DNA of 64,000 nt from Nautilus pompilius (Eukaryota; Mollusca; Cephalopoda; Nautilida; Nautilidae), in the NCBI GenBank assembly GCA_018389105.1, contig JACATO010000036.1:434001-498000 (forward strand), in the 5' to 3' direction. The notes beneath the pieces were generated by a model, which did no database searches, had not been told where the DNA came from, and saw only the letters and a list, made by a program, of their open reading frames with translations. Below, in pieces: positions 27,441-54,369 of this stretch. Within the stretch, counting starts at the first letter, position 1. Each line of letters opens with the position of its first letter. The position numbers were made by a program, and so were the translations under genes.

Positions 27441-27694
27441 CCCGGGAAAAAAAAACCATTTCAGCAGAGGTGACAGAAAAAAAAAAACAAAAAACAAAAC
27501 AAGGGAAATAGGACCCTCCCAAACAATTAAGGTGTAAATTGGTTGCAGTTTCACTTCCAGTAAAAAAAAAAAAAAAAAATAAAATAAAAAAACTGGGCTT
27601 CTCTGTTTTTCGTTTTCTTCAAGAGAAATAGCAATACTTATTTATAACATAGCACAACAACAACTTTTGTTTAGTTTCCAAGGCTGTTTGAACA

Positions 27695-27788
27695 AATTTA
27701 GGGTTTTTTTTGGGGGGGGGGTCGCCGAATCCAAAAATGACATTAGTTTTGCCGAATTGGCTCTAGTTTTTTGAGGTAATGGATATCC
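27695..27788 (+). repeat. Left inverted repeat arm of the zinc-finger/DDE element
   Basis: Pairs with 29977-30061 in reverse complement. Landmarks are GTCGCCGAATCC, GCCGAATTGGCTCTAG and TTTTTTGAGGTAATGGATA. The outer part, AAATTTAGGGTTTTTTTT, is less similar but still matches the ACCCTAAAAT end of the right arm. Confidence 0.75.
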
Positions 27789-27948
27789 CTCAAATTATTA
27801 TGATTTTACCCCAATACGACCTGTATCTGCTGACATATGCAGCAGGGTTTGGCCTATCTTTTTACTGTTTAACATTGTTCTTATCTAATTTAATCTTATC
27901 TTTAGCATTGTTTTGCAGATTCATCCACTGCGTATAATATCATATTGA

Positions 27949-29638
27949 TTAACGAGTTCATCACGAAGAGGCTGCTTAAACAATCCTAATGCATTCTGCT
28001 ACATTTGTGGTGAATACATTCTGCAAAAACAAAGGGAAAAGGTCACAGACTTTGTAAAAGAAGCATATCTTGCTTATTTTGGAGTGAATCTTGGAGACCA
28101 AGATAAGTCTTTGGCTCCCCATAAGGTTTGCAAAACATGTGTAGAGTGCCTACGACAGTGGGAAAATGGAGTAAGGAAAAGTTTAAACTTTGTTGTGCCT
28201 ATGGTGTGGAGCGAGCCGCAAAACCACCACGATGATTGTTATTTTTGTGTTGTGAATGCGAAAGGCTTCAATCGCTACAAGAAACATAAGTGGGAGTGTC
28301 CTGATTTGGAATCAGCAAGGCGACCTGTGCCACATTGTGAAGACATTCCCATACCAGTGTTTAACTCACTGCCCGGCCTTCTATTGTCAGATTTTGAAGA
28401 AATGCAGGAGTTGGAGTGTAGCACAGGTGGTAGCAGTGAAAGTGAATATGAAGGAAGTTTATTAACACCTAAGCAGTTCTCCCAAGAAGAGCTCAATGAT
28501 CTTATATGAGACCTCTGTCAAAGCAAGCATCTAAACTTAGCATCCAGGCTAAAAGAAAAGAACTGTCTAAAGCCGGAAGCTAAGATAACAGCTTATCAGA
28601 CAAGAGAGGAGGTACTTCTTCCTTACTTCAGGCAAGATGAAGAACTTGTATACTGCTGTGACATCCCTAGGCTTCTCCAAATGGGAATACCAGAATATTG
28701 ACCAGAAGATTGGCAGCTTTTTATAGACAGCTCCACCAGAAGCTTGAAATGTGTTTTACTGCACAACAGAAACAGCTATGCATCTATTCCAATTGCTCAC
28801 TCAACAAAACTTAAAGAAGAATATGAAAATATTAAAATGGTCTTGAAGAAGCTTTGCTATCATGAGCAAAATTGGTCTATTTGTGTTGATTTAAAGATGG
28901 TGGGCTTCTTGCTTGGGCAGCAAAGTGGATACACAAAGTACCCTTGCTTCATCTGCTTGTGGGATAGTAGGGCAAAGCAAGATCACTGGAAAAAAGTGAC
29001 ATGGCCTTCAAGGGAAAACATGACTGTAGGTGCAGTGAACATCATTAATGAACCATTGGTTGACAGAGAAAAAATCATTCTTCCACCACTCCATATCAAG
29101 CTTGGACTGATGAAGCAATTTGTTAAGGCCTTGGACAAAGATGGCGATTACTTCAAATACATTTGTAGATCGTTCCTTGGACTGAGTATGGAAAAACTAA
29201 AAGCAGGAATCTTTAATGGTCCTCAGATTCGTAAACTCGTCAAAGATTTGAATTTCACAAAATTTATGAATGATGTTGAAGCTTCTGCCTGGTGGAGTTA
29301 TGTCTCAGTTGTCAATAACTTCTTGGGTAACCACAAAGCAGACAATTACGAAGAATTGGTGAAAAAGATGCTCGATAACTTTGAAAATTTGGGTGCTAAT
29401 ATGAGCATAACATACACTTTCTCCATAGCCACTTGGACAGATTTCCAGATAATCTTGGTGATTTTAGTGAGGAACAAGGGGAGAGGTTCCATCAGGATAT
29501 AAAAGTGATGGAGGAAAGGTATCAAGACAGATGGGACAGACACATGATAGCAGACTACTGCTGGAGCCTCCTACGTGATTGTCCTGATGACCCACACAAA
29601 AGAAAATCGTACAAACAGCGTATTTCTATGCATTAATT
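27949..29638 (+). pseudogene. Zinc-finger plus DDE (RAG1/Transib-like?) transposase pseudogene
   Basis: One reading frame runs from 27949 to about 29410 with stops at 28507-28509 and 28699-28701. A one-base loss near 29410 moves the tail into another frame, ending at the stop 29636-29638. No initiator ATG was found. Order of motifs: C-x2-C-x40-C-x2-C finger (CYIC, CKTC); a second C-x2-C in DDCYFC; an acidic linker; Asp in FIDSS at 28726-28728; Asp in VDLKMVG at 28888-28890; C-x2-C (CFIC) at 28945-28956, exactly 19 and 22 residues after that Asp; LHIKLG at 29089; H-x4-H at 29415 and 29430; and Glu residues in FSEEQGERFH at 29469-29483. RAG1 has its second Asp (708), C727/C730, LH-x3-G, H937/H942 and E962 in this order, with the same D-C-C and H-H spacings. 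I recognise close relatives as abundant uncharacterised proteins in many invertebrates. This copy is inactive. Confidence 0.8.
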
Positions 29639-29976
29639 GTGATTACCCGAATCAGCTCACTTTCTTTTTATGTGACTGTACTGAATACAACACCATTAGG
29701 TATTTCATGTGTTTACTTTTGTATAATTTGAGACAGTTTCCAAGTGATTTGTGGGTGGGCTAATGCCTGACCATTAAACTGTTTGCATTTTTTATGTTTT
29801 TCAATAAGGTTCTGAAACTTTATGATAAAAATGAATGTAAAAATAATTCCAACATTAAATCTGAAACCAGTTAGATGACCAAATACCTAAAGATCAATTC
29901 AGCAACAAATGTATATACGTGAAAATGACAGTGGCTCTGAAGGCTGAGCGAGCTGAACTCTCAAATAAGGGGGGGG

Positions 29977-30061
29977 GGGCATCTATTATCTCAAAAATTA
30001 GAGCCAATCTAGAAAAACTGATGCCATATTCGGAATCAGCACCCCAAAGTTACCCTAAAAT
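29977..30061 (+). repeat. Right inverted repeat arm of the zinc-finger/DDE element
   Basis: Reverse-complement partner of 27695-27788. Landmarks are ATCTATTATCTCAAAAATTA, GAGCCAAT, ACTGATGCCATATTCGGAAT and CACCCCAAAGTTACCCTAAA. It lies about 340 bp after the transposase stop. Confidence 0.75.
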
Positions 30062-32849
30062 CACTCTAATATCATTGGCAATAAAATTAGTGTTGACCAG
30101 AGTAATATAACCATTAAAATTGACGTGTTTCTTGGAATGTCTAATTTAAAAATTCCACCACAGGCACAAGAAACACTGTAACCCGGCAGTGATAACAGAA
30201 ACCCCAGGTTACTTCACTGATAAGCCTGAGTTTAGCCAAAGATTTGTTGTGTACCTCAGAGTTTTATCAGTAGCATTTCGTAAGTCCCACCAAGTTTATC
30301 TTAAGAACTGGCTTATTCTCTTACAATGTCTTAACCTTTTCTTTGAGATTTTTCAAAAGAAAACAACGGTTGTACAATATTAGGGTCTAATTAGAAAAAA
30401 AAACCCATCTCCAAACAGAAATGTAAGAAACATTACATATTTTCAACATTAAATAAATATTTTGTGATATTTTGTATTATGAATCATGGTCACTATATGG
30501 TATCTGTACTGAATGTTAAAATATCAAAAAAACTGATTTGATGGACAACACAATTAGTATTGATACTGATGACTACATGTATAAATAGCAGTTTCAATTA
30601 CATTTTTTTTTCCAATTATATTTCAAGGTGACAGTAAGGTTATAAGATACTACATTGACAGGACCAGCTGGATTGCAGCATGATTAACTAGAGTGAATGT
30701 TAAAATCACGTTTAAATATTGTACACAATTTTCTAATTATACACAATCAGGCTATTAGCTAACAACCATTGATCTGCATGCCATTTATATAAACAGTGTT
30801 AGCTATGGCAAACATCTTTCTAAATTAACTTACCACTAGAATTTGATTTTGTGATGTCATTATATTATTAATTCAACTCTTATAGACTCGGTTCTTTCTC
30901 ATTGACCAATTACCAGAGAATGAAGCTGGTTTTTGGTGATAAACAATATGCATCACTTCCCATTTAGCTTCCCTCTCCCTGGCAATGCCACCATTAGAAG
31001 ATCCACAGCTTTTCCTGTGATATCAAAATACCGATCCAGTTTAATGCAAGCACTTCCTGGTGCCAATGTGGGCAAACTGAACACCATCCCTAACTGTCAT
31101 TATCTTTGCAAATTTCATAACAGGAGAGACACAAGGTGCACGCACAACAAAACAGAACTTCGGTAATTGAAAAAGCCTGAACATTAATCAAGCGGATGGC
31201 ACTCGTTGGAAAATCAAAGCAAGTCATTTGCTCCGCAAGGCTTGCTCAGTGATGAATGCGTTTATGATGAAATTGCTACAGGAAGAACGACAAATTGGCG
31301 ATTCCATAACCTCGCCATGTTTAATGACAGGGAGCGCTTTTGTGCCACCGCCAAATCTTGCCAGTACTATCACACTTGCCATGTTTCCAAGGTTGGTGAA
31401 CACATGGGCTGAGTGGCCGTTTCAATCACAGAAACGTGAATGACGCCTGGAGGAAAAACAAGCAGATAAACAGAAAAATTGACATCAATGGATGGGAACA
31501 AAGACAGTCTGCTTCCAGCCTTTAATTTAGGCTATGAACTACACAATCTAGTGGAGACACTTGAAAAGAAATTGCAAAAAAAAAGAAAAAAAAAAAAGAA
31601 ACAGAGGAAGAGAGAAGACAAGAGAGGAGAAATAATCCCATAAAAAGAAGCTGCAAACAAAAATTATCAGTTGGGCATTTTACAGAAAGGTGTCATGGTA
31701 GCAATCAACAATAAACAAATTAAAGCTGCCATAGCTAATGCCAGTTTAATCCTTGGTGGTTTTGAAAAAAAAAAAATTAAAAAAAAAAATAGAAGTCCGT
31801 ACTGGTTTAACCCTTTTGAGACACAAGCATGCTATTCTGTAAGCAACCACTATAAATAAACGCCGCATACTCTGACCACATATTTATATGAGGGTTTTAC
31901 GATAAAACAACAAAGGGCTAGGGTTCCCACAAAAATTCCATAAAGTAGATAAAAGAATTAAAAACAAGCTTTATATTACAAATGAGAGTTAATGGTGAAA
32001 TTCAAAATAATATTCTGTAGTTTTTCATTATGCAGCATGAACATAGTACAGTGAAAGTCAATTTATCCAAACATTAAACATCTGAATGAAAAAAAAAAAA
32101 AAAAATTTCTCAGATCCATGCGCCAAATGTTTGTATTACCTGCTGTAGCTTTTTAAAATTTTTTTTATCATTCCACTCATTTTTTTACATCTGCCACCGC
32201 ATGGCGTCCTCGGCACTGTATTCAATTCCCGCAATGTTTCCAGAGTGGACAGATGTGAAGCTATTGCTACTCTTAATTTTTTGATTTACTATATTTAAGT
32301 ATAGCAAGTTTTCTTACCATGGCTGCCACAGAAACTAATGCTAAGAAGAAGTGTAAGCATGTTGTACTTCATATACAGCAAAAGGTAGACATTACCTGTG
32401 GTGGATCTCAGAGACTTATGATATTCTGGCATAGAAAGATAAACTGTTCAAGTTTTGTGAAAGATACTATCTAACACAAAGTGTGAAGAAATAAGATCAT
32501 CCAAAGGGTCATGTCCTGATATCCAAATTAACTGGTTCTCCAAAGTCAGTCAGGTTTCAGATAATTTGGATAAATTGACTTGTACTGCATTATTTTTCTG
32601 GGAATGTCTAGCCAAGACAATTTGCAAATGGTTTCTGAGAAAACAACATTAATTACACTGAAAATATAAACCATAATCTCTAAATTTAAGGTTATTTTAA
32701 ACTCACTATCCCAGTAAAGAACCACATATAACATGTACTGAGTTGTTAAAACCCTTTCTTTAGTTCCTTCCATGTTTCTCAAGGTAAATTTGAAGACTCA
32801 CACACAGAGAATTTAAATTTGATACGTAACCAGTATATACGAATATCTA
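30062..32849. other. Non-coding, includes a complex block at 30930-31470
   Basis: AT-rich flanks surround a higher-complexity stretch that is listed separately. A-rich runs lie near 31576-31610, 31766-31790 and 32089-32106. The open frames here (60-78 codons) have no domain support. Confidence 0.45.
30930..31470. other. Compositionally complex block, candidate conserved non-coding element
   Basis: About 540 bp of balanced composition with no homopolymer longer than five. It includes ATTAATCAAG (a TAAT core), GTTTAATGACAGG (TGACAG, the TALE/Meis core) and GCCATGTTT segments. Overlapping plus-strand frames at 31206-31443 look like a by-product of the low stop density and have no splice-site pairing. 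Enhancer function is inferred only. Confidence 0.35.
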
Positions 32850-34001
32850 CAGCACTGAAAATAATTATGGAAACAAATACAAAAAGCATACAAAATGCAA
32901 ATAACATGTTATAGAATCCAATCTCACGTATAAAAAAATATGAAATGCTTTATATTAGAGCCATGTTTTGATATAGTTATCATGCAAGCAATCCGAAAAT
33001 GCCACACCTATAGAAGAACTACAGAGGCATAGGCAGCGATATCCCTGCAGTGTAGTGAATGTGTGGTGAATACTATGGCTCCTCTGAAGAAAATATCACA
33101 TGACAAAAATATGGAAATCAAAGTCTCAGCTAGAGAAGGCCACTCCATGTGGGAGATTGTTGTATGTAAGACTGAAAAGGGGATGTAAAAATGGCACTAC
33201 TGACAATAGACGTGGTCAGGGAAGAAAGCCCATTAAGAACCTCAGGGTGTGTTCTTTATGTGGTAGACTACAAGCCAGTTAAGATCTTTAAAACGATCCA
33301 GCTACAAGTATGGGTATTAATATTTCTTCAAGAACAGTAAGATATACATAAGATGAAGTGGCCTCAGTGGGTGTGTAACTAACTGCCCGAAAATGTTTGC
33401 TGGGAAAAGGCAAACAGATAGCATGGCTAAAATGGGCAACAGAAAGGGATGATCAAAGCTGGAAGGAGGTGCTCCTTACGGATGAGTCCGAGTTTAAACT
33501 GTTTGCCAATACTCAACAGCAGTTTGTATACAACAATTACAATAAAGTAATATAAGCATGGGTTGCATATCAGTCAAGACTTTCGGAGATTTGCATAAAA
33601 TTGAAGGTATACTGACTGCCAACAGATACAGGCAGGTTTTCATCCATCACATCATTCTCTCAAGAAAACATCTCATTGAGTGGGGATTCATCTTCCAACA
33701 CGATAATAACTCCCAAGCATACAGCCGGTCTGGTGAAAACCTATCTGGAGCATAAAGAGGCTGACGAAACACTCACAAAAATGCCTTGGCCTGCACAAAG
33801 TCCTGATATGAATATCACCGAAGCTATGTGGCTACTGAGAAAGATAAACCACCACCAAACACCTTGGATGAATTGTGAAGATTGTTACAAGGTATTTGGA
33901 AGTGTTCTACAGCCATACATTGATAACCTATATGAGCATGGAAGCAAGGTGTCATGCTCTATAAAAAGTAAAAGGCTTACATATCAAATATTTATGCACT
34001 G
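32850..34001 (+). mobile_element. Degenerate Tc1-related transposon
   Basis: The right end is the complement of CAGTGCATAAATATTTGATA followed by TA. A left end beginning CAGCACTGAAAATAATTATG after TA matches it loosely. That gives about 1152 bp, shorter than usual for Tc1 and consistent with internal deletions. The termini are decayed, so the boundaries are less certain than for the other elements. The coding relic inside is unambiguous. Confidence 0.6.
33076..33990 (+). pseudogene. Tc1-related transposase pseudogene, DD38E spacing
   Basis: An ATG at 33076 opens MAPLKKISHDKNMEIKVSAR, then the frame breaks repeatedly. Conserved catalytic-domain pieces are LLTDESEFKLF (first Asp at 33481-33483), GCISVKTFGDLHKIEGILTA, GFIFQHDN (second Asp at 33702-33704), PKHTAGLVKTYLE and WPAQSPDMNITEAMW (Glu at 33820-33822). 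Asp-2 to Glu is 118 nt, which is 38 intervening residues plus one extra base. That is longer than the Tc1 value of 34 and matches the DD38E group reported in the literature as Intruder. The family link is from memory; the spacing is measured. At least five stops or shifts make it non-functional. Confidence 0.85.
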
Positions 34002-34515
34002 TATAAGATATTTTGTTGTTGTATAGTTTCTGTAATAATGATTTGTGTATGTATTCTATAGATCCCCAGTTTAAATTAGTTATTATTTGCGCCTAACCTA
34101 TTTTTCCCAAAATATTGTATGCGTGTACTTTAGACATTCACCAGAAATTTTAATTTGCATTAGATAACACAACGTCTTACTCTAGAAGTGTATTCTGAAT
34201 CTAAATCAACAGACTTTGAATAAAACAATCCTTTCTCAATTATTAACAGAATTTAACATTTTGGGATATTAACTCTTATTTGTTAGCATTTCATGTACCT
34301 TTATAAGATCTTACATGGCTATCACAGTTTTCCTGTCTGCTTTCATGTTTTCTAATGTGAATTAAAAAATTTTTATTTTGCTCTAAGATAAAACTGGTCT
34401 TTTAAATTGACATGTTAATTGAAAATAACATTTAAAACAAACAACTGGAAAATATAATATACATCACCAGTTATTTACCAAAAAAAATCTGTGTGTGTGT
34501 GTGTGTGTGTGTGTA
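34002..34515. other. AT-rich spacer between two transposons
   Basis: About 510 bp of AT-rich sequence ending in a (TG)n microsatellite that abuts the mariner element. No gene or regulatory site is supported. Confidence 0.6.
34490..34513. repeat. (TG)n microsatellite abutting a mariner insertion
   Basis: About twelve TG units end directly at the TA that forms the left target site of the mariner element. Confidence 0.93.
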
Positions 34516-35803
34516 CGAGGTCTGTTGAAAAAGTATCCAACCTTAGGCTGGGGAAAAAAATTACGTACTTGCTGGGGCTCAATTGCTAATCCCCTGCGAA
34601 GTGGGCCCCTTGTACCTCCACGCACTTAGCCCAGCGATTCTTCCACCGTTCGAAGCATGTCTGGAATGTTTTCTTCCAGAATGGCTCTCAGCTCCGCTGC
34701 TGCATTACTCTCAGCTCTCAAAGCGGGAGCTTTTTAGTGGGAACAACCAGAAGTCAGGAGCAGCCATGTCTGGAGAGTAGGGAGCCTGGCGAATGAGCAA
34801 AATGCCATTCTTTGCCAAGAAACCTTGGATCAGCTCCGACGAATGAGCCGGGGTGTTGTCATGCTGCAGCTGCCAGTTTTGCAAGGCCCACAGATCCGGT
34901 CTCTTACGCCAACTGCATCACAAAGATGTAGGACGACTTTCTGATAGTACTCCTTTGTAACTGTTTGTCCTTCTGGTGCATATTCGTGATGTACACCGCC
35001 TCAATAGTCGAAGAAAACAGTCAGCAGCACCTTGATTTTGCTCCAGACGTGATGTGCTTTTTTGGACCTTGGCGACATTGGGTGCTTCCACTGTGATGAC
35101 TGAGCTTTGGTTTCCAGGTCGTACCCATACACCCATGTCTCATCTCCAGTTATCACAGTATTCTGGAACTCAGGATCTCTGTTGGCAGTATTCAGCAGGT
35201 CCTGTGCAACCTCAAGATGTTGTTGTTGTTCCTAAGAAAGCAGCTTGAGCACAAATTTCGCTGCCACTCTGCGCAAGCCCAAATCCTCCTTTAAAATTGC
35301 ATGTGCAGAATCTTTACTGATCCCAACCTCGTCACCAATTTCCCGCACCACCAAACGACGATCCTCCATTATGAAGGTCCGCACTTTCTCGATAACAACT
35401 GCATTGCGGCTTGTTGACGGCCTCCCAGAACACTGGTCACTCTCTACCGATGTGCAGCCATCTTTGAACCTGTTGTACCATTCTTTTATTTGGGTAACAC
35501 CCATGGCATTGTCACCAAAAGCCTGTTGAATCTTGCAAATTGCTTCCGTTTGGGTATCTCCAAGCTTTTGGCAAAACTTGATGCAAGATCGTTGCTCCAC
35601 ACGTTCCGTCATCACAGGTGAAATGAAAATGCGATGAGTAAGTAGTACAGCACCTCACATGCTGGTTGGCTGACAGCGACTGACACATCCAGCAAGCCCG
35701 CTAAAAACCACGCATGTGGCTCCACTATGCATACTTTTGACTCCCTAATGTTATTACTTCCCACAGGAAAAAATAAAGTCAGATACTTTTTCGACAGACC
35801 TCG
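34516..35803 (-). mobile_element. mariner-family transposon, 1288 bp
   Basis: The left end, CGAGGTCTGTTGAAAAAGTA, and the right end, the complement of CGAGGTCTGTCGAAAAAGTA, are nearly perfect inverted repeats (one difference in 20). They are flanked by TA at 34514-34515 and 35804-35805. The length of about 1.3 kb is standard for mariner. The transposase gene inside is on the minus strand and broken. The well-kept termini suggest the copy is younger than the Tc1 relics at 17211 and 32850. Confidence 0.95.
34590..35612 (-). pseudogene. mariner transposase pseudogene, DD34D
   Basis: On the minus strand an ATG at 35612 begins MTERVEQRSCIKFCQKLGDT. About 125 codons stay open through two helix-turn-helix regions (EAICKIQQAFGD, TQIKEWYNRFKDG and RPSTSRN are recognisable), up to about 35232, where the frame breaks. 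Downstream, in shifted frames, the catalytic Asp residues can be read: ITGDETWVYGYD at 35142-35144, LQHDNTPAHSS at 34858-34860 and SPDMAAPDFWLF at 34753-34755. The last two are separated by 34 residues, the mariner DD34D signature. The family matches the SETMAR/GVQW-like mariners common in invertebrates. Frameshifts and stops in the C-terminal half make it inactive. Confidence 0.9.
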
Positions 35804-41910: not shown

Positions 41911-43375
41911 CAGGTGCATCTCAAAAAATTAAAATATTGCAGAAGAGTTCAATATTTTTTGTCAGTTATTTCAGAAATTGAAAATTGTATATATTCTAGA
42001 CTCATTACTCAAGCATTTTTAATTTTAATTTTGATAATTACGGCCTACAGCTCAAAATATTAGAATATTCCATTTCTAGTTTGAGTAAATCACTATTTAT
42101 GCAGCATAAATACCACGAATCTCTCAGTCTGGTTCAGTACACACAACCACAATCATGGGGAAGACTGCTGACTTGACAGTTGCCCAGAAGACGCTCAATG
42201 ACACCCTCCATGAGGAGGGTAAGCCACAGAAGGTCATTGCTGAAAGGGCTGGCTGTTCGCAGAGTGCTGTATCAAAGCATATTCATGGAAAGTTGGTTGG
42301 AAGGGAAAAGGTGTACAAGCAAGAGGGATGACCGCAGCCTTGAGAGGATTGTCAAGCCAAGCAGATTCGAGAACTTGGAGCTTCACAAGGAGTGGACTGA
42401 GGCTGGAGTCAGTGCATCAAGAGCCACATTCCTAGTGTCAAGCCACTCCTGAACCAGAGACAACATCAGAAGCGTCTTACCTGGGTTAAGGAGAAAAAGA
42501 ACTGGATCGTTGCTCAGTGGTCCAAAGTCCTCTTTTCAAATGAAAGTAAATTTTGCATTTCATTTGGAAATCAAGGTCCTACAGTCTGGAGGAAGAGTGG
42601 AGAGGCACAGAATCCAAGTTGGTTGAAGTCCATTGTGAAGTTTCCATAGTCAGTGATGGTTTGGGGTGCCATGTCATCTGCTGGTGTTGGTCCACTGTGT
42701 TTTATCAAGTCCAAAGTCAACATAGCCATCTACCAGGAGATTTTAGAGCAATTCATGCTTCTGTCTGCTGACAAGCTTTATGGAGATGCTGATTTCCTTT
42801 TCCAGCAGGACATGACACCTGCCCACAGTGCCAAAACTACTAGTAATTGGTTTGCTGACCAAGGTATTACTGTGCTTGATTGGCCAGCCAACTCGCCCGA
42901 CATGAACTCCATAGATTTTCGATGGGGTATTATCAAGAGGAAGATGAGAAACACCAAACCCAACAATACAGACAAGCTGAAGGCCGCTATGAAAGCAACC
43001 TGGGCTTCCATAACACTTCAGCAGTGCCACAAGCTGATCGCCTCCATGCCATGCCGCATTGATGCAGTGATTCGTGCAAAAGAGACCGACCAAGTATTGA
43101 GTGCATAAATGAAATACTTTTCAGAAGTTCTACATTTCTATATTATAAAAATTCTTTTTTTTTTATTGGTCTTATGAAATATTATATTTTGAGATAGTGG
43201 ATTTTTGGTTTTCATGAGCTGTCAGCAGCAATCATCAAAATTAAAACAAAAAAGGCTTTAAATACTTCACTTTGTGTGTAATGAATCTAGAATATATGAA
43301 AGTTTCACTGTTTGAATTAAATTATGGAAAAAAATGAACTCTTCCACGATATTCTAATTTTTTGAGATGCACCTG
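41911..43375 (+). mobile_element. Tc1 transposon, copy 1 of a two-copy pair
   Basis: The left end, CAGGTGCATCTCAAAAAATT, and the right end, its exact complement over at least 20 bp, are flanked by TA at 41909-41910 and 43376-43377. The element is 1465 bp, same orientation as the sister copy at 52838 and clearly homologous along its whole length. Relative to copy 2 it lacks about 35 bp around 42436 but keeps a short segment (AGTGTCAAGCCACTCCTGAA, 42435-42454) that copy 2 lacks. The two are therefore independent derivatives of a fuller ancestor, not a local duplication. Confidence 0.95.
42155..43108 (+). pseudogene. Tc1 transposase pseudogene, copy 1, altered catalytic residues
   Basis: The ATG opens MGKTADLTVAQKTLNDTLHE and continues through a helix-turn-helix (GCSQSAVSKHIHGKL). 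A small deletion then shifts the frame near 42305 and leads to a stop. The middle is in other frames. From 42653 to 43108 a 151-codon C-terminal part is open, in the same frame as the ATG. Two catalytic changes are visible: the usual FSDESK is FSNESK (Asp to Asn, 42539-42541), and the usual NPIENLW region reads NSIDFRW, with Asp at 42914-42916 in place of Glu. The second Asp is kept (FQQDM, 42809-42811), 34 residues before. An enzyme with Asn at the first position would be dead even without the frameshifts. Confidence 0.9.
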
Positions 43376-52837: not shown

Positions 52838-54369
52838 CAGGTTCATCTAAAAAAATTAGAATATCGTGGAAGAGTTCAATATTTTTTGTCTGTTATTTCA
52901 GAAAGTGGAAATTGTATATATATTCTAGACTCATTACATGTAAACTAAAATGTTTAAAGCAATTTTTAATTTTAATTTTGATAATTACGGCCTACAGCTC
53001 AAAATATTAGAACATTCCATTTCGAGTTTGAGTAAATCACTATTTATGCAGCATAAATACCACGAATCTCTCAGTCTGGTTCAGTACACACAACCACAAT
53101 CATGGGGAAGACTGCTGACTTGACAGTTGCCCAGAAGACGCTCATGACACCCTCCACAAGGAGGGTAAGCCACAGAAGGTCATTGCTGAAAGGGCTGGCT
53201 GTTCGCAGAGTGCTGTATCAGAGCATATTCATGGAAAGTTGACTGGAAGGGAATGGAAGGGAAAAGGTGCACAAGCAAGAGGGATGACCGCAGCCTTGAG
53301 AGGATTGTCAAGCAAAGCCAATTTGAGAACTTGGGGGAGCTTCACAAGGAGTGGACTGAGGCTGGAGTCTGTGCATCAAGAGCCACCACGCACAGACGCA
53401 TTCAGGAAATGGGCTGCAAGTGTCGCATTCCGAAGCAGAGACAACGTCAGAAGCGTCTTACCTGGGCTAAGGAGAAAAAGAACTGGACCATTGCTTATTG
53501 GTCCAAAGTCCACTTTTCAGATGAAAGTAAATTTTGCATTTCATTGGAAATCAAGTCCCACAGTCTGGAGGAAGAGTGGAGAGGCACAGAATACAAGTTG
53601 CTTGAAGTCCAGTGTGTTAAGTTTCCACAGTCAGTGATGATTTGGGGTGCCATGTCATCTGCTGGTGTTGGTCCACTGTGTTTTATCAAGTCCAAAGTCA
53701 ACGTATCTGTCTGCCAGGAGATTTTAGAGCACTTCATGCCTCCATCTGCTGACAAGCTTTATGGAGATGCTGATCTCCTTTTCCAGTAGGACTTGGCACC
53801 TGCCCACAGTGCCAAAACTACTAGTAACTGGTTTGCTGACCAAGGTATTACTGTACTTGATTGGCCAGCCAACTCGCCTGACCTGAAACCCATAGATTCT
53901 CGATGGAATATTATCAAGAGGAAGACGAGACACACCAGACCCAACAATACAGACAAGCTGAAAGCCGCTATGAAAGCAACCTGGGCTTCCATAGCACCTC
54001 AGCAGTGCCACAGGCTGATCGCCTCCATGTCATGCCACATTGATGCAGTGATTAGTGCAAAAGGAGACCCAACCAAGTATTGAGTGCATAAATGAACATA
54101 CTTTTCAGAAGTTCTACATTTCTATATTATAAATCCTTTTTTTTTTTTTGATCTTATGAAATATTCTAATATTTTGAGATAGTGGATTTTTGGTTTTCAT
54201 GAGCTGTAAGCAGCAATCATCAACATTAAAACAAACAAAAAAAAGGCTTGAAATATTTTACTTTGTGTGTAATGAATCTAGAATATATGAAAGTTCCACT
54301 GTTTGAAGAATTAAATTATGGAAAAAAATGAACTCTTCCATGATATTCTAATTTTTTGAGATGCACCTG
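52838..54369 (+). mobile_element. Tc1 transposon, copy 2 of a two-copy pair
   Basis: Flanked by TA at 52836-52837 and 54370-54371. The right end is the complement of CAGGTGCATCTCAAAAAATT; the left end differs slightly (CAGGTTCATCTAAAAAAATT). It is 1532 bp. It aligns with copy 1 from end to end, including the untranslated leader from CACTATTTATGCAGC to the ATG and the AT-rich 3' tail. It is longer partly because it keeps a segment lost from copy 1 and has a local duplication of GGAAGGGAAT near 53245. Confidence 0.95.
53102..54083 (+). pseudogene. Tc1 transposase pseudogene, copy 2
   Basis: The ATG opens MGKTADLTVAQKTL, then a single-base loss at the codon after ACGCTC shifts the frame. The main body resumes at 53253 and stays open for 178 codons, including the linker KRCTSKRDDRSLERIVKQ and the catalytic block FSDESKF (Asp intact at 53520-53522). 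Within this body a pair of shifts near 53560-53620 cancel each other. A TAG at 53787-53789 stands where the family has Gln (FQQD in copy 1). Reading continues through Asp at 53790-53792 to DLKPIDSRW, where Asp at 53895-53897 replaces the expected Glu, then to a natural end, GDPTKY plus stop, at 54083. It is the less damaged sister but cannot make full-length protein. Confidence 0.9.

Follow-up and report, generated by a model that had tools for sequence, protein, structure and literature searches.

A broken transposase gene in a decayed element

We analysed a 64,000-nucleotide stretch of the Nautilus pompilius genome (the window; contig JACATO010000036.1, positions 434,001 to 498,000) that carries a broken transposase gene between inverted ends and target-site duplications. 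We are highly confident that the element is a dead Chapaev3 cut-and-paste DNA transposon of the CMC/CMCT clade. Its features are as follows.

27645 to 27647, no strand: left target-site duplication TAA, with an A at 27644 outside it
27648 to 30102, plus strand: whole decayed element (2455 bp), very probably Chapaev3, delimited by DNA match to the same-genome copies L017, L018 and L019 and by its inverted ends
27648 to 27771, plus strand: left terminal inverted repeat with decayed tip, CATAGCACAACAA
27949 to 28509, plus strand: N-terminal zinc-domain piece, with C-x2-C pairs at 27997-28008, 28129-28140 and 28237-28248, ending at a stop
28510 to 28701, plus strand: middle transposase piece, in the frame of the N-terminal piece, ending at a second stop
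28702 to 29420, plus strand: catalytic core piece, with the first Asp (D1) at 28726-28728, the second (D2) at 28888-28890, Cys at 28945-28947 and 28954-28956, and LH at 29089-29094
29412 to 29636, plus strand: C-terminal piece in another frame, with His at 29415-29417 and 29430-29432 and Glu at 29469-29474 and 29481-29483
29993 to 30102, minus strand: right terminal inverted repeat, whose tip reads inward as CTCTGGTCAACAC
30103 to 30105, no strand: right target-site duplication TAA, with a T at 30106 outside it

The relic is a single transposase gene, broken. The open frames carrying its motifs run from 28702 to 29502 and then, in a second frame, from 29400 to 29636, and a protein of the worm lizard Rhineura floridana (P0149) aligns in one frame (27955 to 29409) over 488 residues at 82.8% and in the other (29412 to 29594) over 61 residues at 90%. 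Because P0149 matches in two frames, the gene can be taken to extend from about 27955 to 29636 and to be interrupted by two in-frame stops and one frame change; these are genuine breaks, through which an earlier reading made from the letters of the window (the sequence-only reading) had followed the motifs. The residues it named lie where it had placed them: the Asp of FIDSS (D1) and that of VDLKMVG (D2) are 54 residues apart, with 53 between; the two cysteines follow D2 at +19 and +22; the His of LHIKLG is at 29092-29094; and the 29400-29636 frame, which differs from that of the core, holds both H-x4-H (29415-29432) and SEEQGERFH, whose Glu codons begin at 29469, 29472 and 29481. Among the proteins listed, the one from Rhineura is the closest to 27955-29633 (83 to 90% identity), and a Hydra protein reaches 72 to 80%; these similarities offer a lead for possible horizontal transfer, a process already described for Chapaev3.

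The limits of the element are given by same-genome copies matching the window DNA at 89% (L017), 88% (L018) and 87% (L019) identity, whose matches stop at 27644-27656 on the left and 30098-30107 on the right, no more than about 10 bases from the element ends. With their flanks these ends read A-TAA-CATAGC...CCAGAG-TAA-T, and they can be aligned with each other over about 110 nucleotides. The inverted arms found first, of 53 nucleotides, were rejected as the tips, as they sit within these longer repeats.

Copies in the same genome

The genome searched comprises 727.6 Mb in 2558 contigs. At least 144 matches were scored among 6237 first-look candidates, and the copy number is therefore a lower bound. 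From the match list, 40 loci were picked by hand and fetched, and both ends, CAC(T/A)GG..CCAGTG, were recovered in 34 of them with a pattern that allowed up to 3 mismatches. Identical 3-bp flanks border 32 of these 34 copies; TTA or TAA stands on both sides in 31, and an A precedes and a T follows the duplication in 25. Flanks identical over 4 or 5 bp occur in none. No pair of copies is more than 60% identical in the 60 bases on either side, and since no two have flanking DNA in common, the 34 represent separate insertions.

The six loci that gave no end pair under the pattern were inspected by eye. In L011 and L027 the ends differ (CACAGGGTAACA, CCCAGTG) and TAA stands at either side; L017 is flanked by TTA and TTA, and L015 by TAA and TAC; and L018 and L019, with decayed ends, are one duplicated insertion, since their flanks are common to both. 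A younger subfamily retains undamaged ends, CACTGGTCAACA...TGTTGACCAGTG. Its full-length copy L009 measures 2516 bp and has a single long open reading frame (ORF) of 562 amino acids from the first Met, and among younger copies with intact ends and TWA duplications, two of those read have an open frame of 572 codons.

Deletion derivatives are frequent among the copies fetched. In loci L013 to L048, 28 of the 34 two-ended copies measure 1740 to 1766 bp, and 22 of the 34 share one deletion junction to within 3 edits. Compared with L009, copy L028 has a 764-bp deletion that takes the N-terminal zinc domain and keeps the frame open for 354 codons (319 from the first Met), with the entire catalytic core retained. 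A truncated product acting as competitor or repressor has a precedent in the P element (its KP form), and by analogy an L028-type product may do the same.

The protein family

Two homologue searches found 2429 proteins (E ≤ 1e-3) and 2669 proteins, and the best 120 of each were listed. Column counts leave out gapped rows, and simple patterns served to count the spacings in the 120 homologues that the first search listed. Among these 120, D1 is conserved in 113 of 118, D2 in 119 of 120, and the two cysteines in 118 and 119 of 120; D1 and D2 are 54 residues apart in 84 of the 88 having both, D2 and the first Cys 19 apart in 95 of 96, and LH and the His pair 109 apart in 75 of 80. An alignment of 118 of the 239 fetched proteins with the window ORF up to 29418 gave still sharper columns: D1, D2 and both cysteines are present in 119 of 119, the L, H and G of the LH-x3-G block in 119, 118 and 118 of 119, the first His of H-x4-H in 117 of 117 and the second in 116 of 117, and the three C-x2-C pairs of the N-terminal domain are invariant. 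For the glutamates (numbered as in protein P0180), E510 is found in 116 of 116 and E513 in 115 of 116, with E509 in only 74 of 116 (the remaining 42 have Asp); either E510 or E513 is the catalytic residue.

The aligned proteins are close relatives (53 to 78% identity to the first row), so that this is conservation within the family and not across CMC. The sequence-only reading had held the motif spacing hard to obtain by chance, and the 2429 homologues with near-invariant motif columns bear this out; each D, C, H and E position that it compared with RAG1 is invariant or has one exception in the alignment. Its description of a transposase relic from a widespread family, whose listed relatives lack informative names, is likewise supported. 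Most rows are nameless, and the names that occur are uncharacterized, hypothetical or unnamed, save one fused annotation (P0068); a precomputed Pfam domain accompanies 1 of the 239 listed proteins. More than 2,000 predicted proteins of the searched database thus belong to a family whose names conceal a Chapaev3-type transposase. The peptide patterns used found no relative in viral contigs or in one scan of prokaryote genomes.

Predicted fold and N-terminal domain

A full-length homologue was modelled with a pLDDT of 88.0 and a pTM of 0.65, and the model has an RNase H-like core with an insert as in RAG1, the kind of fold that the sequence-only reading implied. In a structural search, RAG1, HzTransib and BbRAGL head the list, and the predicted fold covers RAG1 residues 460 to 1007, the match beginning after the nonamer-binding domain. 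The homologue is thus predicted to share its fold with the RAG1/Transib core. Going by the model, Chapaev3 would have almost all of the RAG1 core, minus the nonamer-binding domain; if so, it could serve as a practical outgroup in tracing how the V(D)J recombinase arose. Weak matches to structures in the Protein Data Bank (PDB), returned by other sequence searches, were discarded as unrelated proteins. Titles and passages of the literature searched disclosed no structure of a Chapaev protein, and within that part of the literature the model and its match to RAG1 may be unpublished.

The N-terminal piece of the window copy (27949-28509) matches Pfam zf-AD (ZAD) weakly, with an E value of 0.01, below the Pfam cut-off. 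Among 40 family members, zf-AD was matched by 26 at E ≤ 10 (best 7e-4) and RAG1_imp_bd, the RAG1 importin-binding family, by 5 (best 0.011), all weakly; in 10 members scanned singly, zf-AD appeared in 6 at E ≤ 1, each time below the Pfam cut-off, and RAG1_imp_bd in none. At an E value of 0.011, homology to RAG1 cannot be considered established. As a lead only, the N-terminal zinc domain might link RAG1's Chapa domain with the ZAD domains of insects, a link that none of the titles of the papers listed mentions.

Proposed mechanism

We infer that the N-terminal zinc domain would recognise the inverted ends and that two transposase subunits would bring these together. The D261/D315/E510-or-E513 site would then cut beside CAC, probably, by analogy with RAG and Transib, through a nick and a hairpin on the flank. 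The C-x2-C/H-x4-H pair would hold one structural zinc, and the freed ends would insert at A-TWA-T in the target, with the joins staggered by 3 bp.

Placement of the element

Published accounts give Chapaev CAC/GTG ends and 3- to 4-bp duplications, and Chapaev3, in all the elements examined there, a TWA duplication between A and T; the Chapaev3 transposase has the motifs C(2)C, LH and H(4)H (PMC4079192). Ends of the form 5'-CAC..GTG-3' were found in 34 of the 40 loci and the 3-bp TWA duplication with A and T outside in most copies and in the window (A-TAA..TAA-T); the aligned transposases carry all three motifs. Because these are published features of Chapaev3, the group of Kapitonov and Jurka 2008 (cited in PMC4411706), we regard membership as very probable.

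The sequence-only reading was therefore wrong to treat the family as not formally placed: the family that it took to be unplaced is a known one. The likeness to RAG1 and Transib in catalytic and zinc-binding residues is real, and its kinship is in print (PMC4411706, PMC12730594), so that the motif comparison was a correct rediscovery. A single "Transib superfamily" tree holds Transib, TransibSU, Chapaev and Chapaev3, and within it RAG1 belongs to the TransibSU cluster (PMC4411706); a Chapaev family (DUF1280) and RAG1 fall in a single clade (PMC3985635); and EnSpm, Mirage, Chapaev, Transib and RAG1, in the clade named CMCT, have C(2)C and H(3-4)H in common, a figure legend (Figure 4) giving 2 C and 3 H as conserved (PMC12730594). 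The element is a RAG1 cousin and not a Transib.

Several observations weigh against this placement and kinship. The tips of the window copy, CATAGC and CCAGAG, have decayed from CACTGG..CCAGTG; three of the 34 copies depart from a matching TWA (L021 with TAA/TTA, L023 with AAA/TAA, L031 with TAT/TAT), and nine have no A..T outside the duplication. The Pfam families Chapaev (PF06918) and RAG1 (PF12940) are absent from the 19 families matched by any of the 40 members at E ≤ 10, and PDB sequences searched with a profile yielded no match at E ≤ 10. In the structural search the scores of RAG1 entries extend down to 15.0, and the remaining HzTransib entries score 11.7 to 12.3, barely above the P element at 11.5. 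Three parts of the mechanism, the hairpin, the zinc and the N-terminal end-binding, are proposals, and the placement itself, strongly as we favour it, is made by comparison with published features.

EnSpm/CACTA or a further CMCT lineage that duplicates 3 bp would also account for the CAC..GTG ends and the duplication length, both of which suit EnSpm (PMC12730594). We consider this very improbable: all Chapaev3 examined in PMC4079192 show the same preference for TWA flanked by A and T, Transposase_21 had no match in the 40 members (nor in the genome, where control models were silent too), and the zinc-type N terminus may correspond to the Chapa domain that PMC4411706 reports in Chapaev3. Still less probable is a Transib or RAG-like (ProtoRAG) element, which the shared residues and fold might suggest. 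Target duplications are invariably 5 bp in protostome RAG-like elements and predominantly so in ProtoRAG, Transib and RAG (PMC7204232), and we reject this membership because a 5-bp duplication occurs in none of the 34 copies. Nor was a second, RAG2-like gene found in L009, where the gene strand, the one listed, has one ORF of at least 100 amino acids and 2516 bp leaves little room; Pfam RAG1 was unmatched in the 40 members and in the genome, with the controls again silent there. A domesticated host gene, suggested by homologues annotated as uncharacterized proteins in gene sets, is rejected as most improbable in view of at least 144 genome matches, of inverted ends, of target duplications and of the broken window copy.

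Other transposon relics

The window also holds fragments of Tc1/mariner type.

33616 to 34023, plus strand: Tc1/mariner-type DDE_3 fragment (Pfam E 0.0076, below cut-off)
35235 to 35654, minus strand: mariner relic, Mos1-type HTH_48 fragment (E 1.2e-8)
42650 to 43105, plus strand: Tc1/mariner-type DDE_3 fragment (Pfam E 7.1e-9)
53190 to 53786, plus strand: Tc1-like relic, Tc3-type HTH fragment (E 7e-5, below cut-off)

Comparison with known systems

With RAG1 the transposase has in common the D-D-E order, C-x2-C at +19 and +22 from D2, H-x4-H, the predicted core fold and the LH block, whose histidine we take to be the counterpart of RAG1 H795. The RAG1 residues are D600, D708, C727/C730, H937/H942 and E962 (PMC4914335), and H795 of mouse RAG1 is an active-site residue (PMC7204232). 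Unlike RAG1, the element has 54 residues from D1 to D2 instead of 108, a shorter insert, no counterpart matched to the nonamer-binding domain, no RAG2 partner seen, and a 3-bp instead of a 5-bp duplication. Transib (HzTransib) has a 5-bp duplication and its canonical form is core only, whereas the element has 3 bp and an N-terminal zinc-type domain, and a Chapa zinc domain is reported in Chapaev3 and at the RAG1 N terminus (PMC4411706). EnSpm/CACTA and Mirage are alike in C(2)C, H(3-4)H, CAC ends and short duplications and differ in the TWA preference seen here and in Transposase_21, unmatched in the 40 members. The Chapaev3 families Merrow, Garfield and Conan (PMC4079192), in contrast, showed no difference in the tests made: they agree with the element in their CAC..GTG ends, in a TWA duplication set between A and T, in the motifs C(2)C, LH and H(4)H, and in size, at about 2.3 to 2.5 kb with one transposase of about 560 amino acids, Garfield_BM measuring 2289 bp with a transposase of 556 amino acids (PMC4079192).
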